Positions 7,842 to 63,320 of a stretch of DNA of 64,000 nucleotides are shown in pieces. Origin of the DNA: Plumapathes pennacea. Taxonomy: Eukaryota > Cnidaria > Anthozoa > Antipatharia > Myriopathidae. Location: positions 9,245,667 to 9,309,666 of the forward strand of contig OZ038465.1 in the NCBI GenBank assembly GCA_964036295.1, read 5' to 3'. Position numbers and translations under genes: made by a program. The notes under the pieces are model-generated. The model did not search any database. It was not told the DNA's origin and saw only the letters and a list, made by a program, of their open reading frames with translations. How positions within the stretch are numbered: the first letter of the stretch is position 1; the number at the start of each line of letters is the position of its first letter.

Positions 7842-7952
7842 GTTGAGATGGAAATCAATGGAAAGGGGCTTCTTGATGCAAGTCGAGAAGGCACACTTGA
7901 GTGTGTCGAGGCATTGCTTCAACAAGGTGCAAGTGTCAATTACACAGATTTG
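7842..7952 (+). CDS. Exon 1: N-terminus and first ankyrin-like repeat
   Basis: An ATG at 7848 opens 35 codons ending in phase 0 at a strong donor (TTG|GTAAGT). The residues read MEINGKGLLDASREGTLECV then EALLQQGASVN, the second half of a standard ankyrin repeat. An acceptor-like TTTATCTTAG sits just upstream, so the exon may start at 7842 with an untranslated leader exon further left. The next intron is about 8.2 kb and is full of inserted elements. Confidence 0.75.
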
Positions 7953-13900: not shown

Positions 13901-16443
13901 TCAGCAAATCATATGTAGGTTCCCACGCCATGTGAATTTAATGAGCAATTCCCACGACTTAATTAAAAGAACCAAATCTGTCCTGTAGCGTGCTGAATTT
14001 AATGCAACTAGTGACCCTGTGGCACGTTGTCTACAGCCGACGCAGACACGTGATTCGTCACGCAAGGGACATATTTGTACTTTACGCCTTGTGGTCGGCG
14101 TTTTCTTCAAAGTGTTTGCTTTTAAAATGACGCTAGTGAAATTTTTACACTTTATCATGGGTGCATGATATTTAAAATGACAATAAAATGACGTTACAGT
14201 CACGTGAGGAGCTTATTTTGACTCGTAGTCATTCGTGGTCACTCGTGGTCATTCGTGATCACTCGTGGTCATTCGTGGTCACTCGTGGTCGTTCGTGGTC
14301 ACTCGTGGTCACTCGTGTGTTCTTTTAGTCACTATCGTCTGGTGCATGCAGTCCAGAGTAAAAACAAATCGCACAGGAAGCCTATTTAATTGTACTGCCT
14401 ATAAATTCAAAATTGGAAAATCAGTGTTCCTTTTTTCCGTACTACGACGGCCGACCAACTTCAAAATTTAAGTATTAAATTTTGAGAACGTGCTTGGCAG
14501 ACTGTATGAATTAATTTGACGTGCCGACCGTGGGAAATACGTACTTCGTCACGCAATTGACTCTTTTTTCAACGCAAAAGTATAACACACACCATTCTTT
14601 TTCTCCGTCCTTTGCGTGTAGCACTTGACTTCGAAGAAAAGACTGAGTCAACATTTCGGCAAAACAAAGGCTACTCTTGTTGGGAGTATCAAAGTAAAAG
14701 TCCCATCAATGGCAGAGCGAGGGGGTATCTGCGATTATCGTATTTCTAGTGCGATATATTTTTCTGGTGAGAAACTGATAGAGAAACTCTTGGGAGTCTC
14801 GCTGTAGTCCAGGGATTACTCATTAAAGAATTCTAATGCTGCGTGCGGATACTTGCCACACCAAAAATCCCAGACGCGACAAAAATTCTGGTGTTTCTTC
14901 CCAAGTTATACGCCTCTTCTCTCTCCGGTAGGACCAGGAATAATAATGCTTTAGGGTAGCTAGAAACAAATGCGCTATGAGTTGTTAATCTTTATTAACG
15001 TTTTTCATTTTTATTGCCAATTTAAACTTTTTGAGAATAAAATCGTAGCATCCGATATGATAAGCATATTGATGCTTTAATATGCCCATTATCACTCTAT
15101 ATTTTCACCATGTGTTACAATAATTTTCGATAAAACAAAAGGTGCAGCCCTTAATGGCATGTCTTTCGTGTGTAAAATAGGTTGTTTCTTGGAGTGGATT
15201 TCGGCTAATTCGTTAAAACGAAAGAAACTGGTGATGCGCGACTACTAACTGGGGCAGCCGGTCATCATTTTTTGGTAATTTATTTATTGGCAATTTAACC
15301 TAACTTTGTATCTTTAATTTTGTTTTGAGTTTTTCTGTTGTTGAATAAGACTTAGCGCACTCGCTTTCTCAAATCATAAGCTGCTTCCCTCTCCGGTAAG
15401 ACGAAAAATTAGTACATTAAAGCAGGTAGGTACAAATGCATCGTGTATTGTTAGTGTGTACGTCCGCTTTCAGATTGTACATTCAGCGCTATTTTCCCTT
15501 ACATAGTTTCCTATTTTGCATTTGAAGATTTTGTCTTAGTTTCTCGCTGATTGGTTTTACCCTTATATAGTTAGTTAAAACTAAATCATAGCTGATATTT
15601 TCAAAAAAAGAAATCTGAGCTCCCAACTTTCAGGTACTTTTATACTGAAGCTGTTCCTGTACTCGTCATCTATTCGGGGAATGCCGCATATACCCGTGTA
15701 TAAGTGCACTTTAGTAAAGATAAGGGCATAACCTAAGAATAAGCATATGAAATAAGAAAATTGTTTATGTTGGAGAGCAATGTGCACCTTTAAGTGTGAA
15801 ATATGGAAATGTATTTGTGGGAACTTTGGTTTTCCACTGGTTGGGAAATGTGATGTTTATATTCCGTGTAACTGCATATTTGCATTTGGACCTGACCGTT
15901 ATTGTCGATTTGGTTGGTTTGGGAGGCAGGGAGAAGGGGGGAGGGGATGGTCGTTTGGATGATTTGGATATGAAAAGAAGCTGTGGTAGCGGCTGCCCTT
16001 AAATTAGCTGTTACCCCTACTGGACACCGTCATTTCATGTAACCCACTACTTTAATACTTTAGAGTAGTTAGAAACAAAGGGCCGTGAGTTGTTAATCTG
16101 TGGTTTCGTTTTCAGTCCAGAGTGACCCCACTTCACGCAGCGGCAAGTGGTGGCCATCTGGAAGTGGTGAACAAATTGTTAGATGCAGGTGCAGATGTCA
16201 ACGTCACTAATAGGGTACGTAAGACATGTCATACATAGGAAAAAGGTATTTGCAATGAATGTTGATCGATTTTACGGTGTTTGTGTGGATTTCTGCTAAT
16301 TCGTTGAAACGAACGAAACTGGTGATGCGCGACCACTCAATGTGGTAGCCGGTCATAATTTCTTGGTATTATTTTTATTGGCAATTCTACCTCATTGGTC
16401 GCGAGGGCCTGGGGCCGAATGCGAGCTCAGGAAAGCAAATTCT

Positions 16444-16486
<43 letters not shown>

Positions 16487-19400
16487 TTTTTTGGTCGAGA
16501 ATCAGCACACGGTGATTGGTTCAGATTATCAGGTGATATGCAATGACGTAATTGACTTCGTTAAACAACTCGAGTGTGGCCATGATTTGTCGGTACTCGT
16601 GTGTAAAAGTTAACTGCATTTAATCCAAACTCAACACCGTTTGGGTTTGTGCCGAATACGCACTGATAAACTGGTTTTGGCTTGCGTTCTTTAGTTCACC
16701 GCGGAAGCTTTAAGAATAGCCGTAAACAGATGTTTGATGGATACCGCTGGGGGATTGCAAATATCTCTGTCGCCGCTAAATATTTGGTCCCGACGAAACT
16801 TTCTGTGGCGACACGAAATACTTCTGGGAAGAAAACAGGCCGAAAACGGAAACCAAAGCTACGATGAGCTTTAGCCGCAAAACAATGGCGATTTATGCTT
16901 CACTCTGTACATGACATCTGTTGCCTCATAAAATTCTTCTGCTTATCGTACATTGCCTGTTGAAATGTTTCTTTCATTCGATCATGTAGCCTTTGTTTCG
17001 CAATGGTCATTGTATACCAGAAATGAAAAGTACACCGAAATAGTCCTGAGTATTAAGTTTGCAGTCACAAATGGACTGAACACACTGTGAACAAAACCGC
17101 AATAATATTTTAAACATGTCTCGTGTTACATTCCTCGCTTTCAATTTTATATTTGTTACAAAGCACGAATACTCGAAAGCCTGATAGAAGAAACGTATTC
17201 AGTTAATACAAGAAAACACACAAGTATTGAAGCGAAGGCTGAATTGATCGTGGCCTCTGATTAGAAATAAGAGTCAAAGTCGATTGTGCATAAGAAGAGG
17301 TGTCACAATTTCGCCCCAAAATTTTTACCGGTTCCGGCGAGCGGAGCGAGCTGACGTTCGGAGAGAGGTAAGATAACGCGCAACTAAACATATTTAGCCA
17401 GTTTTTAAGTTCAATTGCTGCCGAAGACCGCCGTTCGGCGAACGACCAAAATCCCCATACATTTCTTTATAATTGCCAAAATCATGTTCTTTCGTAATAA
17501 CGAAGGTATCACATATTACTGTGTGACAGACAGACAGACCCCCGGAGCCTGGGCTGCCCTGTGTGTATACTAGAAATGAAAAATACACCGAAATAGTCCT
17601 GAGCATTGATTTTGCAGTCACAAATGGACTGAATACGCTATGAAGAAAACCGCAATGATATAGTAAACAAGTCTCGTGTTGGGCTCGTGTTACATTCCTC
17701 GCTTTCAATTTTATATTTTTTACAAACCACAAATACTCGAAAGCCTGATAGAAGTTAAACGCATTCAGTTAAAAACAAGACAGACTAGTATTGAAACGAA
17801 GGCTGGTTTAATCGTGGCCTCTGATTAGAATTAAGTGTTCGAAGTCAAACTGTCAAAATCGATTCATAAAAAGACAAGTCACGCATTACTCAGATTTACT
17901 CGGTGGGTAACCGTTTCGCTTCTAAGCTCAAAATGCAGAGTCGCTGAACCTTTAAGAAACAAGTGTATGAGTGTTGTAATGATAAATTTATAGTTTAATC
18001 AGGTTTCATTTAAGCAAGGCGTCAAAAGCCAAGTTCTCTATACTGTGTGATATATTTCTGGTGAGAAACTGGAAGTCTCCCGGAAGTTCCGCTCTTGTCC
18101 TTGCTTTCCATTTTAGTTTATTTTGCTCTCGACCTAACTAACGCCGCGAGCTCACTTGCAGCGCCAGTCTAGTTATGTATCTGCAATTTGATTTTGAGTT
18201 TTTTCATTTGTTGAATAAGATTTACTGCACTTTCTTTCTGAAGTCATAAGCTGTATTCTTCTCCAGTTAGACTATAAATTAGGTACAAATGCGTCGTGTG
18301 TTGTTAGTGTGTGGGTCCGTTTTCAGGTTGTACATTTAGCGCTATTTTCCCATATATAGTTTCCTTATTTTCCATTTGGGGATTTTGTCTCAGTTTCTCG
18401 CTGATTGGATTTAGCCTTATATAGTTAGTTTGGACCGGGATTTGAGCTCTCGCAGAAGCGACTTATGTATTTACCAACTGAGGACATGCAGTTAAAACTA
18501 AATCATAGCTAATATTTTGAAAAAAAGAAATCTGAGGTACCAACTTTCACATACTTTTATAGTGAAGCTGTCCCTGTACCCGTCATCTATTCGGGGAATG
18601 CCGCATATACCCGTGTATAAGTGCACTTTAGTAAAGATAAGTGCATAACCTAAGAATAAGCATATGAAATAAGAAAGTTGTTTATGTTAGAGAGCAATGT
18701 TTCCCTTTAAGTGTGAAGTATGGGAATGTATTTGTGGGAACTTTGGTTTTTCACTGGTTGGGAAATGTGATGTTTATATTCCGTGTAACTGCATATTTGC
18801 ATTTGGACCTGACCGTTATTGTCGATTTGGTTGGTTTGGGAGGCTGGGAGAAGGGGGGAGGGGATGGTCGTTTGGATGATTTGGATATGAAAAGAAGCTG
18901 TGGTAGCGGCTGCCCTTAAATTAGCTGTTACCCCTATTGGACACAGTCATTTCATGTAACTCACTACATTAATACTTTAGAGTTGTTAGAAACAAAGGGC
19001 CGTGAGTTGTTAAAGTGCCTATAAGCCTTCAGACGTTACGTTTTTATATGAAAGTAGGAAGTGATCTAAGCAACTTATATTCAAAGAAACTCCGTTCCGA
19101 AGCGTTCTTATACTTTTTTCACGCGGTTGAAGTCAGAATTCTAAAGTCTTGACCGAGCTACCTGGGAGACTGGGTCTGTGACGTCAGAGAAGACACTGGC
19201 ATCGCTTTGGCGTCTCTTTACCTTAGTTGTTTTTTTCCCTTGGTTACGTTTTTCTCGACAACACATCTATGAACATATTTCTCATCTCGCCAACTGCAAA
19301 ATCTGTGTGAAAGTTTTGTTTTGACAAGAAACGAATCCCTCCTCTGGCGTCATAACCCAGGCTCTCGATCCAAAAACTTTGCGCGGTCAGATTCAAAATG

Positions 19401-22400
19401 GCGGTCAAAATCGCATGTTTGCCGGGCGGAAAAATATATAAAAACGCTTCGGAGCGGAGTTTCTTTGGCCATAGGTTGTTTAGATTACTTCCTACTTTCA
19501 TATAAAAACGTAACGTCTGAAGGCTTATAGGCACTTTAATCTGTGGTTTCGTTTTCAGTTCAGAGAGACCCCACTTCACGCAGCGGCAAGTGGTGGCCAT
19601 CTGGAAGTGGTGAACAAATTGTTAGATGCAGGTGCAGACGTCAACGTCACTAATAGGGTACGTAAGACATGTCATACATAGGAAAAAGGTATTTGCAATG
19701 AATGTTGATCGATTTCACGGTGTTTGTGTGGATTTCTGGCTAATTCGATGAAACGAACGAAACTGGTGATGCGCGACCACTCAATGTGGCAACCGATCAT
19801 AATTTCTTGGTATTATTTTTATTGGCAATTCTACCTCATTGCTCGCGGGGGCCTGGAGCCCAACGCGAGCTCAGGAAGGCAATTTGTTTATTTATTTATT
19901 TTTAATTTTTAATTTTTTTCTCGGTCGAGAATCAGCACACGGTGATTGGTTCAGATTATCAGGTGATATGCAATGACGTAATTGACTTCGTTAAACACCT
20001 CGAGTGTGGCCAGTGAATTGCTCGGTACTTGTGTGTAAAAGTTAACTGCATTTAATCCAAACTCAACACCGTTTGGGTTTGTGCCGAACACGCACTGATA
20101 AACTGGTTTTGGCTTGCGTTCTTTAGTTCACCGCGGAAGCTTTAAGAATAGCCGTAAACAGATGTTTGATGGATACCGCTGGGGGGTGCAAATATCTCTG
20201 TCGCCGCTAAATATTTAGTCCCGACGAAACTTTCTGTGGCGACACGAAATACTTCTGGGAAGAAAACAGGCCGAAAACGGAAACCAAAGCTACGATGAGC
20301 TTTAGCCGCAAAACAATGGCGATCTATGCTTCACTCTGTACATGACATCTGTTGCCTCATAAAATTCTTCTGCTTATCGTACATTGCCTGTTGAAATGTT
20401 TCTTTCATTCGATCATGTAGCCTTTGTTTCGCAATGGTCATTGTATACCAGAAATGAAAAGTACACCGAAATAGTCCTGAGTATTAAGTTTGCAGTCACA
20501 AATGGACTGAACACACTGTGAACAAAACCGCAATAATATTTTAAACATGTCTCGTGTTACATTCCTCGCTTTCAATTTTATATTTGTTACAAAGCACGAA
20601 TACTCGAAAGCCTGATAGAAGAAACGTATTCAGTTAATACAAGAAAACACACAAGTATTGAAGCGAAGGCTGAATTGATCGTGGCCTCTGATTAGAAATA
20701 AGAGTCAAAGTCGATTGTGCATAAGAAGAGGTGTCACAATTTCGCCCCAAAATTTTTACCGGTTCCGGCGAGCGGAGCGAGCTGACGTTCGGAGAGAGGT
20801 AAGATAACGCGCAACTAAACATATTTAGCCAGTTTTTAAGTTCAATTGCTGCCGAAGACCGCCGTTCGGCGAACGACCAAAATCCCCATACATTTCTTTA
20901 TAATTGCCAAAATCATGTTCTTTCGTAATAACGAAGGTATCACATATCACTGTGTGACAGACAGACAGACCCCCGGAGCCTGGGCTGCCCTGTGTGTATA
21001 CTAGAAATGAAAAATACACCGAAATAGTCCTGAGCATTGATTTTGCAGTCACAAATGGACTGAACACGCTATGAACAAAACCGCAATGATATGGTAAACA
21101 AGTCTCGTGTTGGGCTCGTGTTACATTCCTCGCTTTCAATTTTATATTTTTTAAAAACCACAAATACTCGAAAGCCTGATAGAAGTGAAACGCATTCAGT
21201 TAAAAAACAAGACAGACTAGTATTGAAACGAAGGCTGGTTTAATCGTGGCCTCTGATTAGAATTAAGTGTTCGAAGTCAAACTGTCAAAATCGATTCATA
21301 AAAAGACAAGTCACGCATTACTCAGATTTACTCGGTGGGTAACCGTTTCGCTTCTAAGCTCAAAATGCAGAGTCGCTGAACCTTTAAGAAACAAGTGTAT
21401 GAGTGTTGTAATGATAAATTTATAGTTTAATCAGGTTTCATTTAAGCAAGGCGTCAAAAGCCAAGTTCTCTATACTGTGTGATATATTTCTGGTGAGAAA
21501 CTGGAAGTCTCCCGGAAGTTCCGCTCTTGTCCTTGCTTTCCATTTTAGTTTATTTTGCTCTCGACCTAACTAACGCCGCGAGCTCACTTGCAGCGCCAGT
21601 CTAGTTATGTATCTGCAATTTGATTTTGAGTTTTTTCATTTGTTGAATAAGATTTACTGCACTTTCTTTCTGAAGTCATAAGCTGTATTCTTCTCCAGTT
21701 AGACTATAAATTAGGTACAAATGCGTCGTGTGTTGTTAGTGTGTGGGTCCGTTTTCAGGTTGTACATTTAGCGCTATTTTCCCATATATAGTTTCCTTAT
21801 TTTCCATTTGGGGATTTTGTCTCAGTTTCTCGCTGATTGGATTTAGCCTTATATAGTTAGTTTGGACCGGGATTTGAGCTCTCGCAGAAGCGACTTATGT
21901 ATTTACCAACTGAGGACATGCAGTTAAAACTAAATCATAGCTAATATTTTGAAAAAAAGAAATCTGAGGTACCAACTTTCACATACTTTTATAGTGAAGC
22001 TGTCCCTGTACCCGTCATCTATTCGGGGAATGCCGCATATACCCGTGTATAAGTGCACTTTAGTAAAGATAAGTGCATAACCTAAGAATAAGCATATGAA
22101 ATAAGAAAGTTGTTTATGTTAGAGAGCAATGTTTCCCTTTAAGTGTGAAGTATGGGAATGTATTTGTGGGAACTTTGGTTTTTCACTGGTTGGGAAATGT
22201 GATGTTTATATTCCGTGTAACTGCATATTTGCATTTGGACCTGACCGTTATTGTCGATTTGGTTGGTTTGGGAGGCTGGGAGAAGGGGGGAGGGGATGGT
22301 CGTTTGGATGATTTGGATATGAAAAGAAGCTGTGGTAGCGGCTGCCCTTAAATTAGCTGTTACCCCTATTGGACACAGTCATTTCATGTAACTCACTACA

Positions 22401-25400
22401 TTAATACTTTAGAGTTGTTAGAAACAAAGGGCCGTGAGTTGTTAAAGTGCCTATAAGCCTTCAGACGTTACGTTTTTATATGAAAGTAGGAAGTGATCTA
22501 AGCAACTTATATTCAAAGAAACTCCGTTCCGAAGCGTTCTTATACTTTTTTCACGCGGTTGAAGTCAGAATTCTAAAGTCTTGACCGAGCTACCTGGGAG
22601 ACTGGGTCTGTGACGTCAGAGAAGACACTGGCATCGCTTTGGCGTCTCTTTACCTTAGTTGTTTTTTTCCCTTGGTTACGTTTTTCTCGACAACACATCT
22701 ATGAACATATTTCTCATCTCGCCAACTGCAAAATCTGTGTGAAAGTTTTGTTTTGACAAGAAACGAATCCCTCCTCTGGCGTCATAACCCAGGCTCTCGA
22801 TCCAAAAACTTTGCGCGGTCAGATTCAAAATGGCGGTCAAAATCGCATGTTTGCCGGGCGGAAAAATATATAAAAACGCTTCGGAGCGGAGTTTCTTTGG
22901 CCATAGGTTGTTTAGATTACTTCCTACTTTCATATAAAAACGTAACGTCTGAAGGCTTATAGGCACTTTAATCTGTGGTTTCGTTTTCAGTTCAGAGAGA
23001 CCCCACTTCACGCAGCGGCAAGTGGTGGCCATCTGGAAGTGGTGAACAAATTGTTAGATGCAGGTGCAGACGTCAACGTCACTAATAGGGTACGTAAGAC
23101 ATGTCATACATAGGAAAAAGGTATTTGCAATGAATGTTGATCGATTTCACGGTGTTTGTGTGGATTTCTGGCTAATTCGTTGAAACGAACGAAACTGGTG
23201 ATGCGCGACCACTCAATGTGGCAACCGATCATAATTTCTTGGTATTATTTTTATTGGCAATTCTACCTCATTGCTCGCGGGGGCCTGGAGCCCAACGCGA
23301 GCTCAGGAAGGCAATTTGTTTATTTATTTATTTTTAATTTTTAATTTTTTTCTCGGTCGAGAATCAGCACACGGTGATTGGTTCAGATTATCAGGTGATA
23401 TGCAATGACGTAATTGACTTCGTTAAACACCTCGAGTGTGGCCAGTGAATTGCTCGGTACTTGTGTGTAAAAGTTAACTGCATTTAATCCAAACTCAACA
23501 CCGTTTGGGTTTGTGCCGAACACGCACTGATAAACTGGTTTTGGCTTGCGTTCTTTAGTTCACCGCGGAAGCTTTAAGAATAGCCGTAAACAGATGTTTG
23601 ATGGATACCGCTGGGGGGTGCAAATATCTCTGTCGCCGCTAAATATTTAGTCCCGACGAAACTTTCTGTGGCGACACGAAATACTTCTGGGAAGAAACAG
23701 GCCGAAAACGGAAACCAAAGCTACGATGAGCTTTAGCCGCAAAACAATGGCGATCTATGCTTCACTCTGTACATGACATCTGTTGCCTCATAAAATTCTT
23801 CTGCTTATCGTACATTGCCTGTTGAAATGTTTCTTTCATTCGATCATGTAGCCTTTGTTTCGCAATGGTCATTGTATACCAGAAATGAAAAGTACACCGA
23901 AATAGTCCTGAGTATTAAGTTTGCAGTCACAAATGGACTGAACACACTGTGAACAAAACCGCAATAATATTTTAAACATGTCTCGTGTTACATTCCTCGC
24001 TTTCAATTTTATATTTGTTACAAAGCACGAATACTCGAAAGCCTGATAGAAGAAACGTATTCAGTTAATACAAGAAAACACACAAGTATTGAAGCGAAGG
24101 CTGAATTGATCGTGGCCTCTGATTAGAAATAAGAGTCAAAGTCGATTGTGCATAAGAAGAGGTGTCACAATTTCGCCCCGAAATTTTTACCGGTTCCAGC
24201 GAGCGGAGCGAGCTGACGTTCGGAGAGAGGTAAGATAACGCGCAACTAAACATATTTAGCCAGTTTTTAAGTTCAATTGTTGCCGAAGACCGCCGTTCAG
24301 CGAACGACCAAAATCCCCATACATTTCTTTATAATTGCCAAAGGTCATGTTCTTTCGTAATAACAAAGGTATCACATATCACTGTGTGACAGACAGACAG
24401 ACCCCCGGAGCCTGGGCTGCCCTGTGTGTATACTAGAAATAACAAGACAGGCCCGTGGCCAGTGCGCTTGTGACGTCATTAGTACAATGAATAGAGACAC
24501 GCGGGGTCCCGGGAGAGGAACTTTTGTCGTGCGTTTATATGCAAAAGATATTATAGCCGAGTCAGTTTTTGCACATGACGGATCCAAGAGCTCCCTTTAT
24601 TTTTCTTGCCCTCTTTTCTTCTAATTTCAGTCAAACAGATATTCACGAAAAAGTGTATTATAATAATTGAGAGAAAACAATTATCGAAGGCCCCGTAGGA
24701 ATATTCTTCGTTTGCAACAACCCAGTTTTCATTGCTTTCCGATGCACGTGACAGTACTTGTGTGACGCTTGCTATACAACCTGGCAACCTTGTTGAGTGA
24801 ATTTTCAAGCTGACATGTTTTGTGGAGGAACTGTGTTGTCATTTTGTAATGGGATTGACTGGGGAATACCCGACATCTTAAGTAGCTGTAATTGAAAGCT
24901 TTCAGACTTATCTCTGTAGCACATTAAAACATGACACTTCCCATTATGAAATTACTTCGTATGAAAAAGCCATCTCAGACGTTACTCATCCTACATGTAC
25001 AAGTCTGATCACTAATATGTGCAAGATTGCTATGCATTAAGCTTTAACGCAAAATTCTGGGTCGATACGAAATTAATCTCTATCGGAAGCTGCAGACGTT
25101 TGAATACCGTGACAACAAAGGCGTGCATCACGGGCTTGTGGAGCGAACATTACGGCTCGGATAGTCGGATATCAACCTTGAGCTTTTGAAGACTTCGAGG
25201 TATTCAGTGACAAATATTGTCGATGTAATCGCCTGCCGGTCTTTCCTGCTTTTGTTAAAGCGGCGTGAGTGAAAGCTAAGTAGCTGATGATTCGGGATTC
25301 CCCGTTCTATGATATTATGCTCGTGACATTTCATTGACAGATCTTGTATCTTAATCTCGCGTGATATTTGCCTCAAACCTATTAGTAATTCAATATCCTC

Positions 25401-42730: not shown

Positions 42731-42803
<73 letters not shown>

Positions 42804-45800
42804 GACTAGTATAAAGATTGAAAAACGAAACTAGTTTATGAAAAAAAAAAGTTTTACCAATTCCACTGATATTTGACTTTCTCTCGCCTTGGTTTACTGT
42901 TTAATTGCATACCCAAAGAACAATTTAAACAAAGAAAGTCACATTTTTTATTGCAAACATTAGAGATCATCAAAACATTTTGAGATTGTATAGATGCCAA
43001 TAATTTGTCTAAAACAAAGACAAAAATTGAGTCCGATGGATAGCCACAAGCCAGCAAGTAGATCTTGTGAGCCTTCCTAAACATGTTTTGTGCTAGAACA
43101 ACCGGTCCCCGGGTTAACAATATCACAGGAAAATCCTTGCTGGGACTGGAGACACAATCGCATACTGCCGACCAGCATGAAGTTCCTCTGTAGAAATGAA
43201 TCTGGATTGGATCCTCTGAACAGGTATAAACACAGCTGACCCCCCTTCCTCATAGTCTTTGGCACACCAGACAGAGAGAGGGTTCTTGTACCCAAAGTCC
43301 TCAGCTGAAGGCTTCAGCCACTTAACAACTGCAAACACGTGTGAGAGTTGTCTTCTCCTGATTTCAACACTGTGTACCATGTAGTATAGAACCATCCCAG
43401 GACGAACTTCACCAGGATCAATGGTCCCATTTTCTCCACACCAAGATGCCATAATGCGTCCATAAGAGTTCAGTCTCAAATTCAGCGATGACCCATATTT
43501 CTCCCCTGAAATTGTGATTGATGGATACTTTTTGAACATGGTAGCCAAACCGAATGCAGTCTCATTTACTTGTGAGTACAGTTTCTTGTAAACAGAATGC
43601 AAAGCCAGAGTACTGTCTCTGTCTAGTCTTCCAAGTTTGTAAGAAGATGGCAGGCACACAGCTGAAACCTTTGTCCACACTGCCTCTTTTCCTATCATGG
43701 AACCGGAAGCCGCCATCATTAATTGAAGAGGATTTTGTGTCTCTAGAGAGGAAATACCCTCCAGTAACTGAGAACACTGTTCCATAAACAATTCTCCATA
43801 GTGCTTGGGAAGATGATGCTGCATGTCTGAAATAATCCCACAAGTTAAAAACTTGCGCATCACTTGTATTTCAATGGCCTTGCTGTTTGTATGATATGAT
43901 CCCAGAATGCCATTATAACGTTCGAAGCTGAAGAGCCAGAATCCATATATGCTGCCATAGTTCTCAATGCATTCCTTCAGATGCAGATGCAGATGCAGAT
44001 GCATATTTGGTGTAATTTCTGCTTTACCGTACAGTCTTTCAAAACTTTGTACAAAATCAAGAAGCTTTCTGTCAGCTATTAAGACATCAGTCTTTGTGAT
44101 ACATGGTTTGCAAAGGTGTTTGCATGCGAGGACGAAAGATTGCCACACACGAAGATGCTGATTGGGCAGGATCCCTTCAAGGACATACATAGAGTAAAGG
44201 AGGACAAAGTTTTTCCACTGAGCAGCAGTGAAACCACCATAATTTGATAAGATGTTACCAGGTAGTCTTCCCAAATCTGATGTGGCACCAATTCTTTCGA
44301 TACGTTCTTGAATCTGCTGAAGGTCTGATTTCGAAAGTATCTCTGTTTTGATCCACATAGAAAAAACTCTCTTTGCAGTCCCAAGGAAAAGATTATGCAT
44401 GGGGTCAATCACACACATAGTGATGGGCGAATAATATGGCAGCTTCAGCAATGTGGTATATCTGCAGCCAAGTTTACTTTCAAGCTGTTGTCTTTGGGTC
44501 TTTGTTTTACAATTCTTGACCCTCAGAGTATCTCTTCGATGTTGTGCTGAGGTTCTCTTTGGCCATGAGTCTCGATCAGCAAAGCCGCTGTAGTCTCTAC
44601 GCTCACCAAATCCCCCAGGAAAAGTCTTGTAGCAATGAGAGCAACCACGAGCTGCCATGTGGCCAAGAAATCCACACAGTTTTCTTGCAGCAGGAATGTC
44701 TGAGGCACAGCAGAGAAGGGCACCATGAATTTCCACTTTATCAGATGGGCTGCTGTATGTGTTGACTTTAGCACCATCCCACAGTGCCTTTAATTCATCG
44801 ACAACTGGTTCTAGAAAATGGTTCAGGGATTTGGGCTCATGTGCTAACGATGGCAAGATCCCAACAAGAATGACATTTTCCTGCCGGAAGCGAAGATGTC
44901 TTGGTAGGTTCATTAGCACCATGTAAAGTGCTCCTATGGAACAATCATTACGATGCTTGAATGGCTGGAACCAATCGACATTCATCATAAGTCCATAAGA
45001 CCTGCAACGTGTGAGAAATTGTGTGGAACCATTCCAAACACCAAAGTCCTTCCAAACTTTGCCATCATAAACATCAGCATAAACAGTTTCATCAGTAACT
45101 CTTGTCCTCCACTTTTCACATTCTTGCTCTAGCCCAGGGCGCTTTAAGATATCTTCAATGGACTTAACTATGCTCTTATAGCAGTATGTTTTTAGAGCAT
45201 AAAACTTGCTGGATCCACTCTTCATGATCACCTCCTTAGCCAGTTTTGCTCCGCAAGGCTTGGCTCTTTTGGACCGTGGGAATTGGACATGGCTACAAGC
45301 TTTTGCAGTTACTTGCCTCCCATTGTTTACAAGTATATCATCCATTTGATACAACTTTGTACAAGAAGGGCAAACGACAAACTTTTGAAAGTGATCACGG
45401 TTAATTCCAAGGAATCATGTCAAAATGAAACGACAATAGATTTGTAAATGGGAATTTTTCACCACTTCCTTGATTATCTTGATGCCAGGCATCTCTCACT
45501 GTAACACCAAAACAGAATTCACAAAACTCTCCAAGAAACAAGAGGACAAAATAATGTTCCCATTAAACAGTTGTGCAATGATAACGCATGCAATATTGCA
45601 CATTTTGAATGAGGAAAGCAAACAAAAACCCTCACATCTTCCTATATGCTCCTTGACTGTTCTCTGTGTTACTTGTACGTCATAAATATCTTACACAGTC
45701 AAGCAAGGAAGTCAAAATATATCACAGTAATAGTATATTCGTTTTTGACTAAGAAGTCCAGAGAAAGAATTCGGTTAATCCTGGGATAGCATGGTCGGGC

Positions 45801-48800
45801 TTCGAAAAACCAGGGCCTGACTTTTTTTCTCAAATTTGCAGCAGAAAAACTCTCAACAATGAAATAACTTGCTTGCTCTCAGCCAATCAGATTGCATGAA
45901 TTTTTTATAGTCATGGTCATCACCTGAGTAATGCAACCACATTCTGTCCGTCTCCAATCACTAGACACAGTATGGATGACTTGGCTTTTGATAGCTTGCT
46001 TAGATGTAAGCTGATTTAACACATGATTCTCAATACATCACTCGTACATTTTCTTCATGAATGGTTTGGAGAATTTGTATGAGTTCAGAATTGTTAGGGT
46101 TGAATACAGTCACGCAAAAGAACAAAGCATCAAACCTGAGTCACTTCCAGGAACGTCTTGAAAATATGAAGCAGGAACTTGAGTTTCTGGCTCAATTTCA
46201 CCTTCGAAAAATCAGAAAAACACAAAACTTTAGTTGGCGGCAACGCACAACGAAACATGCGACATTCACCGGCAAATCAAGAACCAACTAAAAGTGTTAC
46301 TGTCGTACCATCAGTGTCACTTGATGAAGAAGATCCCAGGTCGACAACTGAAGCGTTGTTTGTCGGCTTCAGGTCATCTTCCGTTATCCAGTGTTGAGTT
46401 GTGGAATTGTAATACATCTTCTTATGCTCGTGGTACTGAGTATTGCCCAATGACTTATCGCAGTGGCCACACCGCTTCCTCCCACGTTGCTTTTTTCTTG
46501 ATGCACCACTCGATTGACGGCTGGATCGCTTCATAATACTTTACGATAACAAGCCTTGGAAAAGACGAAGATGAACACTCAACTCAACAGAACGCGATAC
46601 CTCTGCGCATGCTCGAACCTGTGTTGCCATAACAACCGCAGGGTAGTCCTGGGTCGGCTTCCCCGGCGACGCGCAAAATTTGACAAGTTCGCTCTGTGAC
46701 AGCTTGGCTTTCGTTCAGTAGGATATGGATTATACGCAGGATTTCAACGATGTTCAGCAAGCAGAAACTCCGTTGAACCCGGATTTTACGCAAGTGCTCT
46801 CAGAATTGAAAGCTATCCGCGAGGAAAATCAGCGTCTAAAACGCGACTTCAAAACTCTCAAATTGCAGTCAAGGAGAAGGCTGAAGTTCAAGGCCGCTGA
46901 GAACATCGATCCCAACTGTTCGGTAAGTTAAGCAATAATTATTATTTCGTTTTCTCTTTAATATCGTAGACCTCTCGTAGCAAATACGTGGCAATAGAAT
47001 GCCGTCAACCAAATAGCGTGTGTTGAGAAAGACGTCGGTATCAGTGTCATGAATATAGGTCTGTTGCAAAGTAGGCCGGATCGACTGTGTTCGAAATTGA
47101 TTGACTTGAAATTTAACTCGGCCTAACAAACATAACCTAATATAAGCTGTCCGAATCCAATCGAACAGAATTTATGAAGTTTGTTACCGCGTGCAATTCT
47201 GACATGCTCGGTTCCCAGCGTCAAAGGCAAGCGCTGCGGCTTGTCCAACTTTGATCTTAGTTCAAGGCCAAGCCGCGCAGTGTTTTCATAGGCACAGCAG
47301 TCTGCGGGTCGCAGGAGACCATATTCTTTCTTATGATAGAATATAGTTTATTTCAGCTTTTGTAAATGCCTAAAAACGATCATTGAAATCTTTCATTCTG
47401 ACATGCTCGATTCCCAGCGTCAAAGGCAAGCTGCGGCTTGGCCTACTTTGATCTTAGTTCAAGGCAAAGCCGCGCCGCGACCATCTATTTGCTACAAATG
47501 AATTATTACTAATGAATGCCGTTGCTGAAATTTTCTTTACCTCCTTTTTTTTTGAGGAAACAAACGTAAAAACGAAAGGAGTGTATTGCTAAAGCGAACG
47601 ATTCAAACAACTGCTGAATGTAGTGCCGTTGAAAAAGCTAGCCACAAAATCCATATTTCATCAGTACATTGATATTTGAACTCTCTCTAAAGTTTTTACT
47701 AGCAGCCGTAAGCACAAGCATAAGAAGATGCGTAACCGGAACTGTCATAAAAACGTTATGCGTTGTAAAAAGAATCTATTTTCACAGATACTATTGCAAG
47801 ACATAAGCATAAGCAAGACAAATGGAAACGTTTCCAATTTCTCGTGCTCACGCATAAGGTTATTTTGCTCATTCGTTTATGCTTATGTCTCTAGTTAGAG
47901 CCGAAATATCAGGGAAATTTTAACATTTCAATTGTTCTATTTTTCTTTAAAGGATGCTGTTAGGACAATTTACAAGGAGCTGTCCAAGGAAGGCACGGAC
48001 AGCGGTGAGAGATTTACCTTTACTCAGTGGTAAGTTTCAATCAACTGCTTTGTTTTACGTCGTAGAGTAAACCCGTCGAAAAAACGTGCAATAAAAGCAC
48101 GCACATACAATCTCTAAATCTATACAATCTCTAAATATTTAAATAGGTGTGACTGAACGTCATCATGCTTTAGAGAGTCTCAAAACGTTCCCCTTTTTGT
48201 TAATGTCGACCCGCTAACTAAGAAGTTTACGGTCGTGATGCATTTTCACAGCTATGATGACCCAACAAATCAACGTGTAACCTCGAGCATAGTCAAGGAA
48301 GTTCGTGGGCTCTACGGAAAAAAGAAGTGGGAGAAGGCCACAATAAAAGGTAATTATGTAGTAAGTTGATTGCGCGCCGATCACCTGGGCCGGCCGGGTT
48401 GTTCAAAGCAAGATTAAGTGGTCAACAAACTGCAGAATTTGATATTTTAAGCAATATTAAACTTTTAGCTAGTCTTATAAGACTAGCTAAAAGTTTAATA
48501 TTGCTTAAAACAGAGCGATGGAGTAATGTTGTAAGCAAACGCTTGTATTTGTAGGCCTAAAAATGACACCAATGTTTATCCTTAACCTTGGGTTAGCCTA
48601 ACCAGGCTTTGAACAACCGGGCCCTATAGGACAACAGAAGAAAGTACACCAATTAATATAAGTGGGCATCGCCGGAGCTTAGAAAGTTCTTTTGATTTCA
48701 TTACAGCGGCCACGAGGCAATACTGGCGGTCTCTCCGTGACGACGATACAAGAAAAACAAATCAGTCGTTCGGAAAACACAGAGAGCTTGTAAAAAGAAG

Positions 48801-51800
48801 AACTCGGCTGCGAAGGGTACGTCTGTAACCTCACTTGCCTTCAGCAAAAACAGTTGATATGTTTAGCTGTCTACTTATAATCTATATGTTTAACCATCTA
48901 TATATTATGTACAGTCAGTATATAGCTATCTATTTTCATTACTTGTCTATCTATCAGCTATAATTCTTTATTATTCAACTATGTCTATGCTGCTATCTTA
49001 CGACTTGTCTATCTATCATATAATTTTTCATATATCGTATATATATATATATTATCTTAAACTGTCTATAAAGATCTATCAAATTTACTCATCTATCTCT
49101 CTATAGCTCATGACCTGTCTATCTATCATCTATCTCTTCATCAGTATATCTATCAAGAGTATCTTTTTGTGTATCGATCTATCTATTTTACTATCTGCCT
49201 GTCTAGAAAATGTAACCTGTTTTTCTTTCGCTGACAGAAATTGGAAAAGCGCAGAAAGGCTGTGAGGACTGTTGCTTTCTCTGAGGGGGACAGGAGTAAA
49301 GCAGAAGAAATACTCAATTCTCCAAATGCGGTTGATTTTATGTCATCAGAGGAGAGCGACCTGGAGGCAGAGTACTGTGGAAGAGGGCCCAGTCCAATAA
49401 GGGCTCTAAAATTAACGTGGCAGCGGTCAAAGTTAAGAAACATCAAGAAAACACTGGACCAGCACTACCAGGAGAATTTATCGAAACATCAGCAAATGAC
49501 CAGTGCTGTTGTCCGCCGCTCTGACAATGTGTCAGACAGGCCTGCTCCAAAGAACAGTCCAGGATGGGCCGTCCGCCTGCCACTGCTGGATGGCAGAGTA
49601 GACCATGTACCACACTAGCTGTACTGCGTAATTTTTGCTTGTAAATTTTCACTTGTTTAATATGTTATACATTTTAGGGAATAGACTTAATAAAGTGTAT
49701 TTTATTGTTGACCTATGTAGTCAGAGTGTTATTTGCTAGTTATTAGTTTATAATACCGTACGTTACCGGGCTATCCAAAACGGACAATATTGCAGAGAAC
49801 ACACATACACACAGTGCAACACCGGAGCAAATATTGACTACATATACACCGTAGCTTTTTGTTTGATTACAATCCCCCAAAAGCCGGCCGTAAACGGCGG
49901 GCCAAACCAAAACGAGATTGAAGAAAGTATAAACTAGTGTTTCAGATGACGGAAACCCAAATTTCACCGCCCCTTAAACACTAGTTTCCTGCAAACAAAA
50001 CCGCACCGTAAACATGCGCATAAGTGATTCGTTTCCGACGTTTACGCAGAACCGGAAACATAAGTAACCGTCAAGTTTCTGTCTGCGGAAACACAAGATT
50101 CCCGCAACGGAAACGCATATTTCCTTCATGTATCCGTTAATTTAACGGCACCGTAAACGTAACATTTCTCCCTACAAATTTAGCGCTATTTTCCCATATA
50201 TAGTTTCCTTATTTTCCATTTGGGGATTTTGTCTCAGGTTCTCGCTGATTGGATTTAACCTTATATAGTTAGTTTGGACCGGGATTTGAGCTCTCGCAGA
50301 AGCGACTTATGTATTTACCAACTGAGGACATGCAGTTAAAACTAAATCATAGCTAATATTTTGAAAAAAAGAAATCTGAGGTACCAACCTTCACATACTT
50401 TTATAGTGAAGCTGTCCCTGTACCCGTCATCTATTCGGGGAATGCCGCATATACCCGTGTATAAGTGCACTTTAGTAAAGATAAGTGCATAACCTAAGAA
50501 TAAGCATATGAAATAAGAAAATTGTTTATGTTGGAGAGCAATGTTTACCATTAAGTGTGAAATATTGAAATGTTTTTGTGGGAACTCTGGTTTTCCACTG
50601 GTTGGGAAATGTGATGTTTATATTCCGTGTAACTGCATATTTGCATTTGGACCTTACCGTTATTGTCGATTAATACTACATTAATACTTTATAGTAATTA
50701 GAAACAAAGGGCCGTGAGTTATTAATCTGTGGTTCCGTTTTCAGTACAACCGAACCCCACTGCACCTAGCTGCAAGTGGTGGCCATGTGGAAGTGGTGAA
50801 AAAATTGTTAGATGCAGGTGCAGACCTCAACATCAGAGACGGGGTACGTAAGATATGTCTTACATAGGAAAAAGTTATTTGCAATGGATGTTGATCGATT
50901 TCAGGGTGTTTGTGTGGATTTCTGGCTAATTCGTTGAAACGAACGAAACTGGTGATGCGCGACCACTCAATGTGGCAGCCGGTCATAATTTCTTGGTATT
51001 ATTCTTATTGGCAATTCTACCTCATTTTGTATCTGCAATTTGATTTTGAGATTTTTCATTTGTTGAATAAGATTTAGTGCACTTTCTTTCTGAAGTCATA
51101 AGCTGCTTTCTTCTCCAGTTAGACATTGAATTAGATACAAATGCGTCGTGTGTTGTTAGTGTGTGGGTCCGTTTTCAGGTTGTATATTTAGCGCTATTTT
51201 CCCATATATAGTTTCCTTATTTTCCATTTGGGGATTTTGTCTCAGTTTCTCGCTGATTGAATTTAGCCTTATATAGTTAGTTTGGACCGGGATTTGAGCT
51301 CTCGCAGAAGCGACTTATGTATTTACCAACTGAGGACATGCAGTTAAAACTAAATCATAGCTAATATTTTGAAAAAAAAAAGATATCTGAGCTTATAACT
51401 TTCAGATACTTTCAAAGTGAAGCTGTCCCTTTATCCGTCATCTATTTGGGGATGTCGCATTTACCCGTGTGTAAGTGCACTTTAGTAAAGAGAAGGGTAT
51501 AGCCTAAGAATAAGCATATGAAATAAGAAAGTTGTTTAAGTTGGAGAGCAATGTTTACCTTTAAGTGTGAAATATGGAAATGTTTTTGTGGGAACTTTGG
51601 TTTTCCACTGGTTGGGAAATGTGATATTCCTTGTAACTCCATATTTGCATTTGGACTCCATATTTGCGTAACTAGTCACCAGGTCCCCCGGTCAGCCCAC
51701 TTTCAGGACGCAGTTGCGTTCACACCTAAAGCGGACTAATTGCTTGTGACGTCACAAGCTTTAAAATGGAACGATTTTTTTTTTTTTTTTTCTGGGTTAG

Positions 51801-57800: not shown

Positions 57801-58696
57801 CATGTCTCAGGCTTTTTTACACAACAGCAAAGGGAACAAGACCGCACCTTCGCTCAAGTCGATACGAGCAGCCATTGATCGATCGCTCCGGTTCGCCTCC
57901 GCAATGTAAACAGTTCCACCATCACCGACTCTGCTTTCACAGAAGCAAATAAAGTTTTCTTCAATAGTCCTTGCTGATGTTCAAGCATCTCCAGTTTCAG
58001 TTCTCGTTCAGCACAGCCAGTTGTCAGTTCCAAGCAGCATCACAAACGTCGCACATGGTGAGCAAAGAAAGCGATTCCCTCCGATGCGATGGTTACAACA
58101 ATAATTGTGGTATATCACCTTAAGGTGTTTTTGTAAACTCCTTCTGAGGGTGTTTGTGCGGTGTAATTCCATGAGAATGTGTTCTTCACTCGATTTTCAT
58201 TCATTCAGCTATCAGCCCGTTCGCAAAGACGTTGTCATAGTTGCGGTAATTATGCGATCATTGTATTTTTGGAGTCTTTTTTGCGTCAAATAAAGTCATT
58301 TTGAAGAGTATTTTGTGGTCCAGTTTTTAATAAAAACAATTATTCTACTCGGGCTTGCCGAATATGGATTGATAAATAACCAACTCGGCGCGGCGCCTCG
58401 TTGGTTATTTTTCAATCCATAGACGGCGCGCCCTTGTAGGATAATTGTTAATTATCGTGTTTCTAGTATCTTTAATTTGGTTTTGATATAAGATTTAGCG
58501 CACTCTCGTTGTTTGTGTGGATTTTTGGCTAATTCGTTGAAACAAATGAAACTGGCGAAGGCGGCTACTCACTGGGGCAGGTCACACATTTGTTGGTGAT
58601 TTTGTTTATTTACAGCTTAACCTTGATTTGTATCTTTACGGTCATTGGTTATGCATTTTTTTGTTTAAGAAGAAAGCGCACCCTGTTCATTTCCCA

Positions 58697-58743
<47 letters not shown>

Positions 58744-59605
58744 AAGGTTTTATTTTGTATTCTAAATTTGTTACAGAGGTTCAGATTTCTTTGCTTACAC
58801 TTACACTTACACTTACTCTTACACTTACACTTACATTAATACTTCACTTACAATGTCACTTACGTATATAAATACATAATACATAATATATAATTTAAAT
58901 ACGGGGTTTACGTAAATTATACATATAAGTGTCCATACCTCACACACTCATGTACACACAGCCTCCGCGTTATCTCAAGAAGAGAAAGGATAAAAAGTCA
59001 CTATGCCTAAAGCTACATGCTTCAGTTACCCGCATGTCTTACTGAACACCTAGATTCGATGTTGCTTCCGTTTCGAGGCTGTTTTGACATGTCAAAAAGT
59101 TAAGGAAGTTTTCTATTTTTGGGATCAGGTTTCGTGTTCTACTGCACCATATGTAATACCTGGCCACCAGAAAGCAAAAGTTTAGTTCCTTCTTATGACT
59201 TGAGGTGTCCGGTATAAGTCCTAGTGCTGTGCTTAAAGAGATATCGTATGCTGTTGGTATAAGTTCTTGGCTTACTAAATACTCATTTCCCAAGTTATAA
59301 GCCGCTTCCCTCTCCAGTTAAACTAGAAGTTAGTGCTTTAAAGTAGTTGGAAACAAATGCTTTGTGAGTTGTTAATCTATGGTAATATTCTGTTTTCAGT
59401 TTCAAAAGAACCCACTTCAGCTGGCCGTCGAGAGTGGCCATCTCGAGGTGGTGAAGAAAGCGTTAGGTACAGAAGCAGCCGTCAAGGTTGCGGATTCGGT
59501 ATGTAAAATGTGCACACATAGAACAGATGACTCTGTAGTGGTGTTCATCGAATTCTCGTTGGCTAATTAATTAAAATCAAATCAAATCAAATCAATCCAA
59601 ATATA

Positions 59606-62600: not shown

Positions 62601-63320
62601 CACTCCCGTACAGGTGAAGAATGAGATCCTGTGGCTGTGCCCAAAGCACGCGGAAGCCACTTCGCCGAAGGAAACCGCCCCGAACCAGGGTTCTTTTCAG
62701 GCAAGTAACGCGGTTTTTGCGAAAAAATGTTGCTGTAATGTGTGTTATAGTGACGTCATGTTCACATTTTTCTCATTATTGAGAGATTGAGCATCACTGC
62801 TTGTGGGGTCATGAAACAAAAAGCGTAAATAATATCTCAAGCTACAACCCTAGACAAAACTACTGGGACAGTTTTAACAGAAGAGCCATTACAAAGACTT
62901 CAGCATTGCCTCCCTCCCCCCGTCGCAATGTTGAAAATTTTGGAGACAAGTGCTGTAAGATGTTTGCCTCGTACCTACTTTACAACACTGAATAGGGGGA
63001 GGGGGGAGAATCTGTCATAGACACGTGTGTGCGAGCTGAAAGTACGACAACATCGAAAAACGCTGTGATACATGATACACTCTCTTGAAGTGTCCCACAT
63101 AATTTTGACCAAGATTGTACAAACAAACCGTTCATAAATCGAAAGAAAATGTCCCCAAAGCAAATGTCACACTTAGTATGGGAAAATGTCACACTTAGTA
63201 TTTACCGAAAATTTGAAGGTTATATACGTTGAAAACTTTTTAAGAACCGACAGTTTGAAAACTGCAAAAATTACAAAGAATGTATGGCTGGGTGGCAATG
63301 GTTGTCACCCAACCATACAT

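Follow-up and report, generated by a model that had tools for sequence, protein, structure and literature searches.

Shuffling of LRR exons in the LRR-ROCO genes of brown algae was reportedly described by Zambounis et al. (2012). DAPK1-type Roco kinases combine ankyrin repeats, Roc-COR, and a C-terminal Death domain in one protein with an N-terminal kinase and no LRR block, and to our knowledge no repeat array expanding by units occurs in DAPK1. LRRK1 and LRRK2 have the domain order ANK-LRR-Roc-COR, and the ANK1-3 genes encode one 33-residue repeat per 99-bp exon in old, conserved repeat sets. The gene described here lies mostly in a window of 64,000 nucleotides of the Plumapathes pennacea genome (contig OZ038465.1, positions 9,245,667 to 9,309,666). 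A cadherin search of the genome gave 150 scored matches of animal-like character, and a GFP-family search gave none, a result that its control showed to be uninformative. The gene shares the ANK-LRR-Roc-COR order with LRRK1/LRRK2, and a search against solved structures matched the LRRK1 chain over LRR-Roc at E 5e-21, but no kinase was found after COR, the window frame ending after a Death domain if the exon chain is right. The position of that domain C-terminal of Roc-COR, seen in a sister gene and as a homologous exon in four of four genes with downstream sequence, recalls DAPK1, from which the gene differs by its LRR block and unit-expanded array. The 99-bp one-repeat exons resemble those of ANK1-3, whereas the recent, near-identical units and ω >1 do not.

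To judge from the accessible text of Teng et al. (2024), the closest known system is the brown algal LRR-ROCO genes, in which each 72-bp phase-2 exon encodes one 23-residue LRR and the exons are shuffled and under diversifying selection (PMC11378527). Both systems belong to the LRR-ROC-COR GTPase family, with one repeat per small fixed-phase exon, tandem arrays, diversifying selection on the concave or binding face (here pooled over five arrays), and a proposed role as immune receptors (PMC11378527). In contrast to the algal genes as described there, the repeats of the window gene are 33-residue ankyrins, each on a 99-bp phase-0 exon, and precede a fixed LRR block, the LRRs lie inside one large exon, the genome is that of an animal, and a Death domain is added to LRR-ROC-COR, the sole layout given for brown algae (PMC11378527). 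Fungal NLRs likewise fuse near-identical ankyrin repeats, variable in number and under positive selection, to a nucleotide switch; the available parts of Dyrka et al. (2014) describe ANK, WD, and TPR repeats of high internal conservation, in which selection acts mainly on the inner helices and the hairpin loops (PMC4986451). The fungal switch is NACHT or NB-ARC rather than Roc-COR, an exon-per-repeat structure is not described in those parts, and repeat-number polymorphism was measured between strains, whereas the differences reported here are among paralogs of one assembly (PMC4986451). Candidate immune-type genes of sea anemones join Roc/COR to LRR, TIR, kinase, or death domains and thus share Roc/COR, LRR, and death domain with the present gene, but the portion of that source available describes no ankyrin-exon array (PMC5094078). 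No ankyrin-exon array on a Roco gene was named in the titles or abstract openings among the matches listed from the open literature, subscription papers being mostly outside that search. The original prediction of an undescribed system was overstated, the same principle being present in the accessible accounts of brown algal ROCO genes (PMC11378527) and fungal NLRs (PMC4986451).

Exons of the window gene

The features of the gene, in window coordinates unless stated, are as follows.

7842..7952, + strand, first coding exon found, N-terminal ankyrin half-repeat or cap (ankyrin search, sequence)
16116..16214, + strand, ankyrin exon 1, 3.4-kb unit (Pfam Ank E 8e-11)
19559..19657, + strand, ankyrin exon 2, 3.4-kb unit (ankyrin search, splice sites)
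22991..23089, + strand, ankyrin exon 3, 3.4-kb unit (ankyrin search, splice sites)
30028..42361, + strand, twelve tandem intron-exon-intron units, exons 4-15 (self-BLAST, unit alignment)
30883..30981, + strand, ankyrin exon 4, type A (exon typing, Pfam)
31889..31987, + strand, ankyrin exon 5, type B (exon typing)
32897..32995, + strand, ankyrin exon 6, type C (exon typing, Pfam)
33904..34002, + strand, ankyrin exon 7, type D (exon typing)
34903..35001, + strand, ankyrin exon 8, type A (exon typing)
35909..36007, + strand, ankyrin exon 9, type B (exon typing)
36917..37015, + strand, ankyrin exon 10, type B (exon typing, Pfam)
37924..38022, + strand, ankyrin exon 11, type B (exon typing)
38931..39029, + strand, ankyrin exon 12, type D (exon typing)
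39930..40028, + strand, ankyrin exon 13, type A (exon typing)
40936..41034, + strand, ankyrin exon 14, type C (exon typing)
41943..42041, + strand, ankyrin exon 15, type B (exon typing)
42362..50175, unstranded, 7.8-kb insertion within the array (array homology ends at 42361 and restarts at 50176)
43126..45414, - strand, tnp2-type transposase ORF in the insertion (PF02992 E 1.8e-16)
50745..50843, + strand, ankyrin exon 16, type C, displaced 1.0-kb unit with homology over 50176-51656 (self-BLAST)
59400..59498, + strand, terminal ankyrin exon 17, divergent (counterpart ends each sister array)
59692..62700, + strand, LRR-Roc-COR exon, 1003 codons (Pfam, splice sites)
63824..63869, + strand, small exon ending in phase 1 (fits the Death-domain exon; same in the C4 sister gene)
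Genome C4:9310007-9310243, Death-domain exon match just past the window end (homology to the sister gene)

The seventeen 99-bp one-repeat exons with intact splice signals that had been predicted were all borne out: every one has 33 codons in phase 0-0, is free of stops, and is preceded by AG and followed by GT. Each encodes one 33-residue ankyrin repeat, and the series runs in frame into the LRR-Roc-COR exon. Among the five of 17 exons scanned with Pfam, four scored above the Ank cut-off (E 5e-12 to 5e-7), and the divergent exon 17 fell below it (E 0.006); exon 17 aligns with three array exons at 66-70% nucleotide identity in gapped alignment, and its counterpart is the last repeat in all four sister genes. 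The proposed tandem 1.0- and 3.4-kb units hold for exons 1-16 but not for exon 17, which has no near-identical unit. Intervals of 3443 and 3432 bp separate exons 1-3, and exons 4-15 follow one another at 999-1008 bp; the exon 16 unit is of the latter kind, parted from exon 15 by the 7.8-kb insertion. An array start placed at 15580 proved to be intron homology rather than exon.

The gene is also longer than the extent first assigned to it. The cap exon has an ATG at 7848 and ends in phase 0 before GTAAGT, and the genome holds five matches to it at E 1e-6 or better, one at the head of each array; because it has a splice acceptor, coding exons further upstream are possible. The junction of exon 17 with the LRR-Roc-COR exon is in phase 0, and the donor of the latter is CAG/GCAAGT. 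Pfam identified COR-A (3.7e-15), LRR_8 (1.5e-13), and Roc (2.2e-11) in this exon, with Roc followed directly by COR (PF08477 E 2e-11, PF16095 E 4e-15) as in Roco GTPases, and Roc-COR was above cut-off in all four paralogs scanned. GEEGVGKTT, DTAG, and THAD, which we take to be GTP-binding motifs, can be read in the predicted translation and are identical across the five paralogs. Neither a kinase nor a NACHT or NB-ARC domain was detected in the Roco exon at Pfam E up to 0.001. An AlphaFold model of the exon, made with five paralogs, had a pLDDT of 33 and was discarded. The Death domain was recognized in the C4 sister gene (PF00531 E 1.6e-10), and the genes with a homologous exon are the four with downstream sequence, the window gene among them; there, provided that the exon chain is correct, a stop four codons past the match closes the frame. 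A trypsin-like ORF that lies beyond the C4 sister on its downstream side was dropped as an effector domain, being not tied to the C4 gene, and had no tblastn match in 30 kb downstream of the window gene.

Duplicated units in five paralogous genes

Four further close Roco paralogs, 74-85% identical, each carry their own ankyrin-exon array, with 33, 12, 10, and 17 repeat exons compared with 17 in the window gene, although the exact numbers may still be off. Clean AG/GT sites flank 88 of the 89 repeat exons over the five genes; 84 of these 88 are 99 bp and 4 are in-frame variants of 90 or 93 bp in two sister genes, and one C11 exon lacks its donor. A decayed unit is kept in two genes, and none of the counts includes two decayed C2 units that lack a clean splice site. 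A 32-bp exon core (≤3 mismatches) has at least 83 genome matches, 83 of 83 within the five arrays, and a control pattern has none. Unit length varies by gene (about 765, 1007, and 1140 bp), and 80 of 82 units have their closest relative, judged by intron flank, within their own gene. Two more distant paralogs (53%), one exon of which was read and which stand outside all selection tests, likewise carry tandem units.

Introns differ by 0-6% among units 4-16 of the window array, and mean intron divergence reaches 8.6% in the array upstream on C4 (C4up); the most identical blocks of the five-array comparison have 0/868 and 0/1007 intron differences. Among the mosaic units of the window array, left-intron haplotypes and exon types are combined in four ways. 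The unit alignments show that whole exon-plus-intron units have been duplicated within each of the five genes, singly and in blocks, and the earlier idea that the repeat domain of a Roco gene was built by tandem copying of entire units held. A chance origin of the array is excluded by the 0-6% intron differences and by the exon-core matches set against the control. The family layout is best explained, from gene models predicted on the DNA, as an ankyrin cap, n single-repeat exons, a terminal ankyrin exon, the LRR-Roc-COR exon, and a Death domain. The original prediction had included neither the start exon nor the Death domain, and neither the sister genes nor the contrast between exons and introns.

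Probable selection on the repeats and its interpretation

In the aligned units, amino-acid-changing sites of the array exons evolve faster than silent and intron sites. Exon divergence exceeds intron divergence in five of five arrays, chiefly at amino-acid-changing sites, and pN/pS is >1 and pN is above intron divergence in all five. With CpG excluded, 37 disjoint unit pairs gave 716/34388 differences in introns (2.1%), 13/528 at 4-fold sites (2.5%), and 106/2091 at 0-fold sites (5.1%; 0-fold versus intron P 6.5e-15, 0-fold versus 4-fold P 0.0096, 4-fold versus intron P 0.54), the 0-fold rate being highest in 5/5 arrays. These and the pN/pS tests used 76 of the 89 exons, with two units unpaired; the exons excluded were the five terminal ones, exons 1-3 of the window, one from C2a, and four from C11 that do not lie in regular units. 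Choosing pairs by intron distance can push intron counts low, but the 0-fold versus 4-fold test and ω are independent of intron counts. Codon-model point estimates of ω (IQ-TREE) were 1.44, 1.59, 5.69, 5.94, and 1.92 per array, that of C2a shifting from 4.0 to 5.7 in the course of fitting, and 1.97 for 82 exons pooled. Support from the N-versus-S tests is modest (P about 0.01), and the pairs on which they are based are related.

The strength of the signal varies among arrays and peaks in C2a and C2b. In the window array it is weak (pN 0.108 versus pS 0.098; CpG-excluded, 6/346 at 0-fold sites, 1/102 at 4-fold sites, and 41/4997 in introns) and inconclusive by itself; the claim rests on the pooled five-array tests. 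In a comparison of four arrays, C2b left out, the excess of variable exon sites was not significant in C4up (P 0.09) and C11 (P 0.19), and exon divergence is lower than intron divergence in the two closest C11 pairs. Across 82 exons (five terminal and two C11 exons were left out of this, the nearest-unit, and the ω analyses), the amino-acid changes are enriched at the six positions that we take to be the ankyrin contacts on the binding face: mean heterozygosity is 0.515 versus 0.192 elsewhere (permutation P 9e-4). Contact positions 13 and 14 vary only moderately (0.30 and 0.24), less than positions 4, 9, 10, and 32 outside the set. The LRR-Roc-COR exon, as aligned, is under purifying selection (dN/dS 0.35-0.50 in 6/6 pairs of four genes). 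Together with repeat numbers of 10 to 33 among the five sister genes, the excess of amino-acid change favouring the binding face partly supports a putative recognition domain fused to a GTPase switch, more strongly than the original prediction could argue.

We consider it likely that these genes form a family of intracellular receptors in which unit duplication lengthens the ankyrin arm and positive selection diversifies it, with the arm joined to a Roc-COR switch and Death-domain signalling; their layout, as predicted, is one that a fast-evolving intracellular receptor would be expected to have. Repeat number would be altered, and repeat types recombined, through unequal exchange or conversion between units, of which the mosaic units may be products. 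The spliced mRNA would hold the whole exon series and give an ankyrin solenoid able to bind rapidly changing or self/non-self ligands; binding would shift the dimeric Roc-COR GTPase, and a death-fold adaptor recruited by the Death domain would set off defence or cell death. As the exons are symmetric and in phase 0, any subset of repeats could also be spliced out with the frame kept.

That symmetry raises an unlikely alternative, in which one or few array exons enter each transcript, as in Dscam, and the array serves as a splicing menu and does not give a long solenoid. Against a menu stand the dependence of ankyrin repeats on neighbours for folding, the likeness of the cap and terminal exons to the ends of a stack, and the in-frame length variation of repeats in two sister genes. 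In its favour, the equal length and phase of all 17 window exons mean that any could replace another, and the accessible text on brown algal LRR-ROCO genes reports alternative splicing of their repeat exons (PMC11378527). It is quite unlikely that this is an ordinary ankyrin domain without any part in recognition, growing through neutral unequal crossing-over while constraint is relaxed. Such growth predicts the tandem units, mosaic haplotypes, and decayed edge units seen, and the available part of one study presents it as a general pattern that new repeats evolve faster, under both relaxed and positive selection (PMC5120217); but relaxed constraint alone would bring nonsynonymous sites to the intron rate, not to 2.4 times that rate, and would not concentrate variation at contact positions. 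Nor does it fit the zero nonsense changes among about 209 exon differences (P 0.0012 at a random rate) or the zero frame-breaking indels in 37 pairs, where introns predict 6.4.

A very unlikely source of the exon excess is mutation or conversion, with exons mutating faster or introns being homogenised while old exon types persist. Synonymous divergence did exceed that of introns before CpG removal (35/871 versus 828/36212, P 0.002), and pS of the window array lies well above intron divergence, yet without CpG the 4-fold sites match introns while 0-fold sites remain 2.4 times higher, ω >1 is independent of introns, and intron-only conversion would itself require selection sparing exons. Collapse or false expansion of repeats in the single assembly, to which the units identical across about 0.9-1.0 kb of intron might point, is highly improbable given that most window units differ by 1-6% in introns, more in C4up, that unit length is gene-specific, and that a transposon lies inside the window array.

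Beyond the receptor reading itself, we suggest tentatively that a hypervariable intracellular receptor system may have evolved in an animal lineage in parallel to those of fungi and brown algae. It would comprise at least five ankyrin-Roc-COR-Death genes, and perhaps seven or more, with recombination of their repeat-exon units rapid enough to make individuals differ in repeat number and order. The resulting recognition repertoires, at the level of the population and possibly also generated by splicing, would serve immunity or allorecognition. The arrays are small enough for long-read genotyping, and their near-identical introns serve as an internal neutral clock, so selection on single repeats is directly measurable. 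If the receptor reading is true, these genes would be an animal counterpart of brown algal one-repeat-per-exon ROCO receptors and fungal repeat-variable NLRs, in which the same GTPase switch carries a different repeat fold and signals through a Death domain, and would tie Roco proteins, for which Parkinson's disease and cell death are the main known contexts, to recognition that evolves rapidly.

The gene in the window and its exon chain

The window gene carries 17 ankyrin exons on the plus strand, each 99 bp long and encoding one 33-residue repeat, as the original prediction had claimed. All 17 are bounded by AG and GT splice signals and lie in phase 0-0. The prediction's placement of all 17 exons in tandem units (intron-exon-intron segments) holds for exons 1 to 16; exon 17 is a divergent ankyrin repeat. 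Exons 4 to 15 form 12 consecutive units spaced 999-1008 bp apart, and exon 16, past a 7.8-kb insertion, belongs to the same ~1-kb unit type. Exons 1 to 3 lie 3.4 kb apart, and their units combine fragments of the 1-kb unit with inserted sequence. An LRR-Roc-COR (Roco) exon of 1003 codons continues exon 17 in phase 0; by sequence, its LRR-Roc portion matches LRRK1 (E 5e-21) and its COR portion the bacterial Roco 3dpt (E 1e-5). The gene extent proposed earlier (15580..59498) had overlooked both a 5′ cap exon and a Death-domain exon past the window.

7842-7952: cap exon, an ankyrin half-repeat that contains an ATG and has a phase-0 end
42362-50175: insertion within the array, with a 763-aa Transposase_21 (tnp2) open frame on the minus strand
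63824-63869: small exon of 46 bp, 3′ of the Roco exon, ending in phase 1

The donor of the Roco exon is CAG/GCAAGT. The Death-domain match begins 341 bp past the window, its frame fits, and a stop lies four codons after it (L023:578-592, in the sequence directly past the window, or C4:9310244-9310258); at that codon the frame stays open in two sister genes, C2a and C11. In the sister gene on the same contig (C4up), the Pfam Death domain is found with E 1.6e-10, and a homologous Death exon lies 1.05-1.64 kb 3′ of the Roco exon in all four genes with downstream sequence (the window gene, C4up, C2a and C11). Phase and splice consensus are the basis for the predicted exon chain and for linking the Death domain to it, and the predicted protein layout is ankyrin(n)-LRR-Roc-COR-Death. 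About 1.9 kb past the Death-domain frame of C4up is a 313-aa open frame with a trypsin-like peptidase domain (PF13365, E 9.5e-15; L021:6910-7848 in the sequence at this gene, C4:9232576); it may be a downstream effector exon or a gene in its own right.

Other repeats occur in the window. Tandem 69/138-bp arrays lie at 4093-4646 and 10284-11102; one of them holds a long open frame on the minus strand that is weakly STPR-like (E 6e-4, under the cut-off), and related pieces recur at 11.9-12.7 kb. Two 10-bp minisatellites (13102-13188 and 14221-14317), about 1.1 kb apart, have units that are mutual reverse complements.

Paralogs with arrays of their own and the movement of units

The window corresponds to C4:9245667-9309666 in a genome of 290 Mb and 24 contigs, which looks animal-like from its numerous cadherin matches (150 scored). 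A search of this genome with the Roco exon as query identified four close paralogs and two more at 53% identity.

C4:9226280: C4up, 85% identical, lying some 79 kb upstream of the window gene
C2:32888294: C2a, 82% identical
C11:7293814: C11, 75% identical
C2:32922142: C2b, 74% identical

A separate cap exon, array and terminal repeat are present in each of the five close genes; in a cap search, five matches had E-values of 1e-6 or lower, and the best of the remainder was at 0.03. Repeat number varies between these paralogs within the one assembly, with 33 repeat exons in C4up, 17 in the window gene, 12 in C2a, 10 in C2b and 17 in C11, 89 in total. A clean acceptor and donor bound 88 of the 89, one C11 exon having no donor, and 84 of the 88 clean exons are 99 bp long, the other four being in-frame at 90 or 93 bp. 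One decayed, 5′-truncated unit each in C2a and C2b stands outside the 89. A 32-bp exon core, searched with up to 3 mismatches, has at least 83 genome sites, all within the five arrays and on one strand, and a control pattern gave none in the same search. Neighbouring exons are about 1.0 kb apart in the window array and about 1.14 kb apart in the other close genes.

Tandem ankyrin-type units are likewise present at both 53% paralogs. Upstream of C2:36647649 there are 22 match rows, most of them stepped by about 765 bp, and C2:28410635-28492153, a region that may span more than one gene, has 23, the query among them. The single exon read from these paralogs is 99 bp long, lies in phase 0 and is flanked by CAG on its 5′ side and GTATGT on its 3′ side. 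COR-A has 63 matches with E-values of 0.001 or lower, which makes the Roco family a large expansion in this genome. A further Roco cluster at C8:3378962-3436226 has very long open frames, the longest of 2332 aa, and LRR matches that recur at an even interval (276 bp in one series); this suggests that repeats have also expanded without introns in some of the genome's other Roco genes.

When units are compared by intron flank, the closest relative of 80 out of 82 is another unit of that gene, and the arrays have therefore expanded largely within genes. In the flank tree, C11 alone forms its own clade, C2a and C2b are intermingled, and neither the window gene nor C4up is a clade. Intron divergence among window units 4 to 16 is 0 to 6%. 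At informative sites, each of two left-intron haplotypes is paired with each of two exon types (four combinations: units 5/9/15, 10/11, 14 and 6/16/7/12), and the site table thus points to recombination between left intron and exon. In C4up, a block of units recurs at offsets of about 7.1-8.3 kb, its copies differing by 0-9 intron sites per about 1,000 bp. We infer that the simplest cause of these patterns is exchange of single and multiple units.

Old edge units of the window array decay; degenerate unit pieces with no recognisable exon lie at 14944-15004 and 58510-58635. A 2.65-kb segment is present twice in tandem to the left of exons 4 to 16 (24441-29794) and once, inverted and interrupted, to their right (51740-56581). 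The copies are about 98% identical, and three contain a 214-215-aa open frame, which had no Pfam match in the one copy tested. Inverted repeats on both sides of the array, such as these, could help it to invert.

Selection on the repeat exons

The first exon-versus-intron comparison covered four arrays, and unit pairs with greater exon than intron divergence numbered 386/496 in C4up, 54/66 in C11, 43/45 in C2a and 70/78 in the window. Variable sites in the window array made up 29/99 in the exon versus 81/855 in the intron (P 2.4e-7); the excess was not significant in C4up (P 0.09) or C11 (P 0.19), and the two closest C11 pairs differ less in exon than in intron. The pN/pS and pN/intron-divergence ratios were, respectively, 1.17 and 1.83 in C4up, 1.10 and 3.12 in the window, 2.67 and 4.52 in C2a, 3.24 and 9.55 in C2b, and 1.95 and 1.67 in C11.

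Pooled tests used 37 disjoint nearest pairs out of 76 units, with 173.8/2780 nonsynonymous, 35.2/871 synonymous and 828/36212 intron differences. Because synonymous sites exceeded introns (P 0.002), CpG sites were removed. Fourfold sites (13/528, 2.5%) then equalled introns (716/34388, 2.1%; P 0.54), and zerofold sites (106/2091, 5.1%) exceeded both introns (P 6.5e-15) and fourfold sites (P 0.0096). The zerofold rate was the highest in all five arrays, most clearly in C2a (zerofold 33/270, fourfold 2/60, intron 152/4742) and C2b (11/231, 1/51, 18/3823); the window counts are small (6/346, 1/102, 41/4997). Codon-model omega, as point estimates averaged over all codons, was 1.44, 1.59, 5.69, 5.94 and 1.92 for the five arrays and 1.97 for all 82 exons. 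One neighbouring pair of C2b units has 2/1010 intron differences and, in the exon, seven amino-acid-changing and no silent ones. Coding constraint on the repeat exons is intact: the 37 pairs contain no frame-breaking exon indels versus 6.4 expected from introns, and none of about 209 exon differences is nonsense (P 0.0012 at the random rate). The LRR-Roc-COR exon has a dN/dS of 0.35-0.50 in all six pairs among four genes.

Repeat positions were assigned by the standard ankyrin numbering. The most variable are 2, 3, 4, 33, 5, 10, 9 and 32, and positions 16, 18, 19 and 21-25 are nearly invariant. At the six positions randomised in DARPin design (2, 3, 5, 13, 14 and 33), mean within-array heterozygosity is 0.515 versus 0.192 elsewhere (permutation P 9e-4), in the same direction in all five arrays, positions 13 and 14 being moderate (0.30 and 0.24).

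Known systems and a proposed working

In a fungal NLR, too, all positively selected ankyrin positions but one map to the concave face (PMC4986451); fungal NLRs share near-identical ankyrin repeats with the window family but have a different switch. The nearest known system is the brown algal ROCO family, whose LRRs are each encoded by a separate 72-bp phase-2 exon, with diversifying selection and alternative splicing (PMC11378527). The principle and the GTPase are common to both, whereas the two differ in lineage, repeat fold, exon length and phase, and in the Death domain; the window family is therefore a parallel and not a member. Coral, sea-anemone and other animal immune-gene papers describe Roc/COR proteins or ankyrin-bearing families, and the passages available from them do not combine ankyrin arrays with Roc/COR (PMC5094078, PMC12314368, PMC8195603). 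No description of an ankyrin-exon-array Roco system was found in the open-access literature among the matches listed.

Ligand, activation and output of the putative receptor we infer from its domains. The ankyrin array would form an open-ended solenoid, its inner face renewed by point change and unit reshuffling, the Roc-COR GTPase would be the switch, and the Death domain would provide the output. Because the ankyrin arm diversifies and the switch is conserved, a role in immunity or allorecognition is a natural guess.
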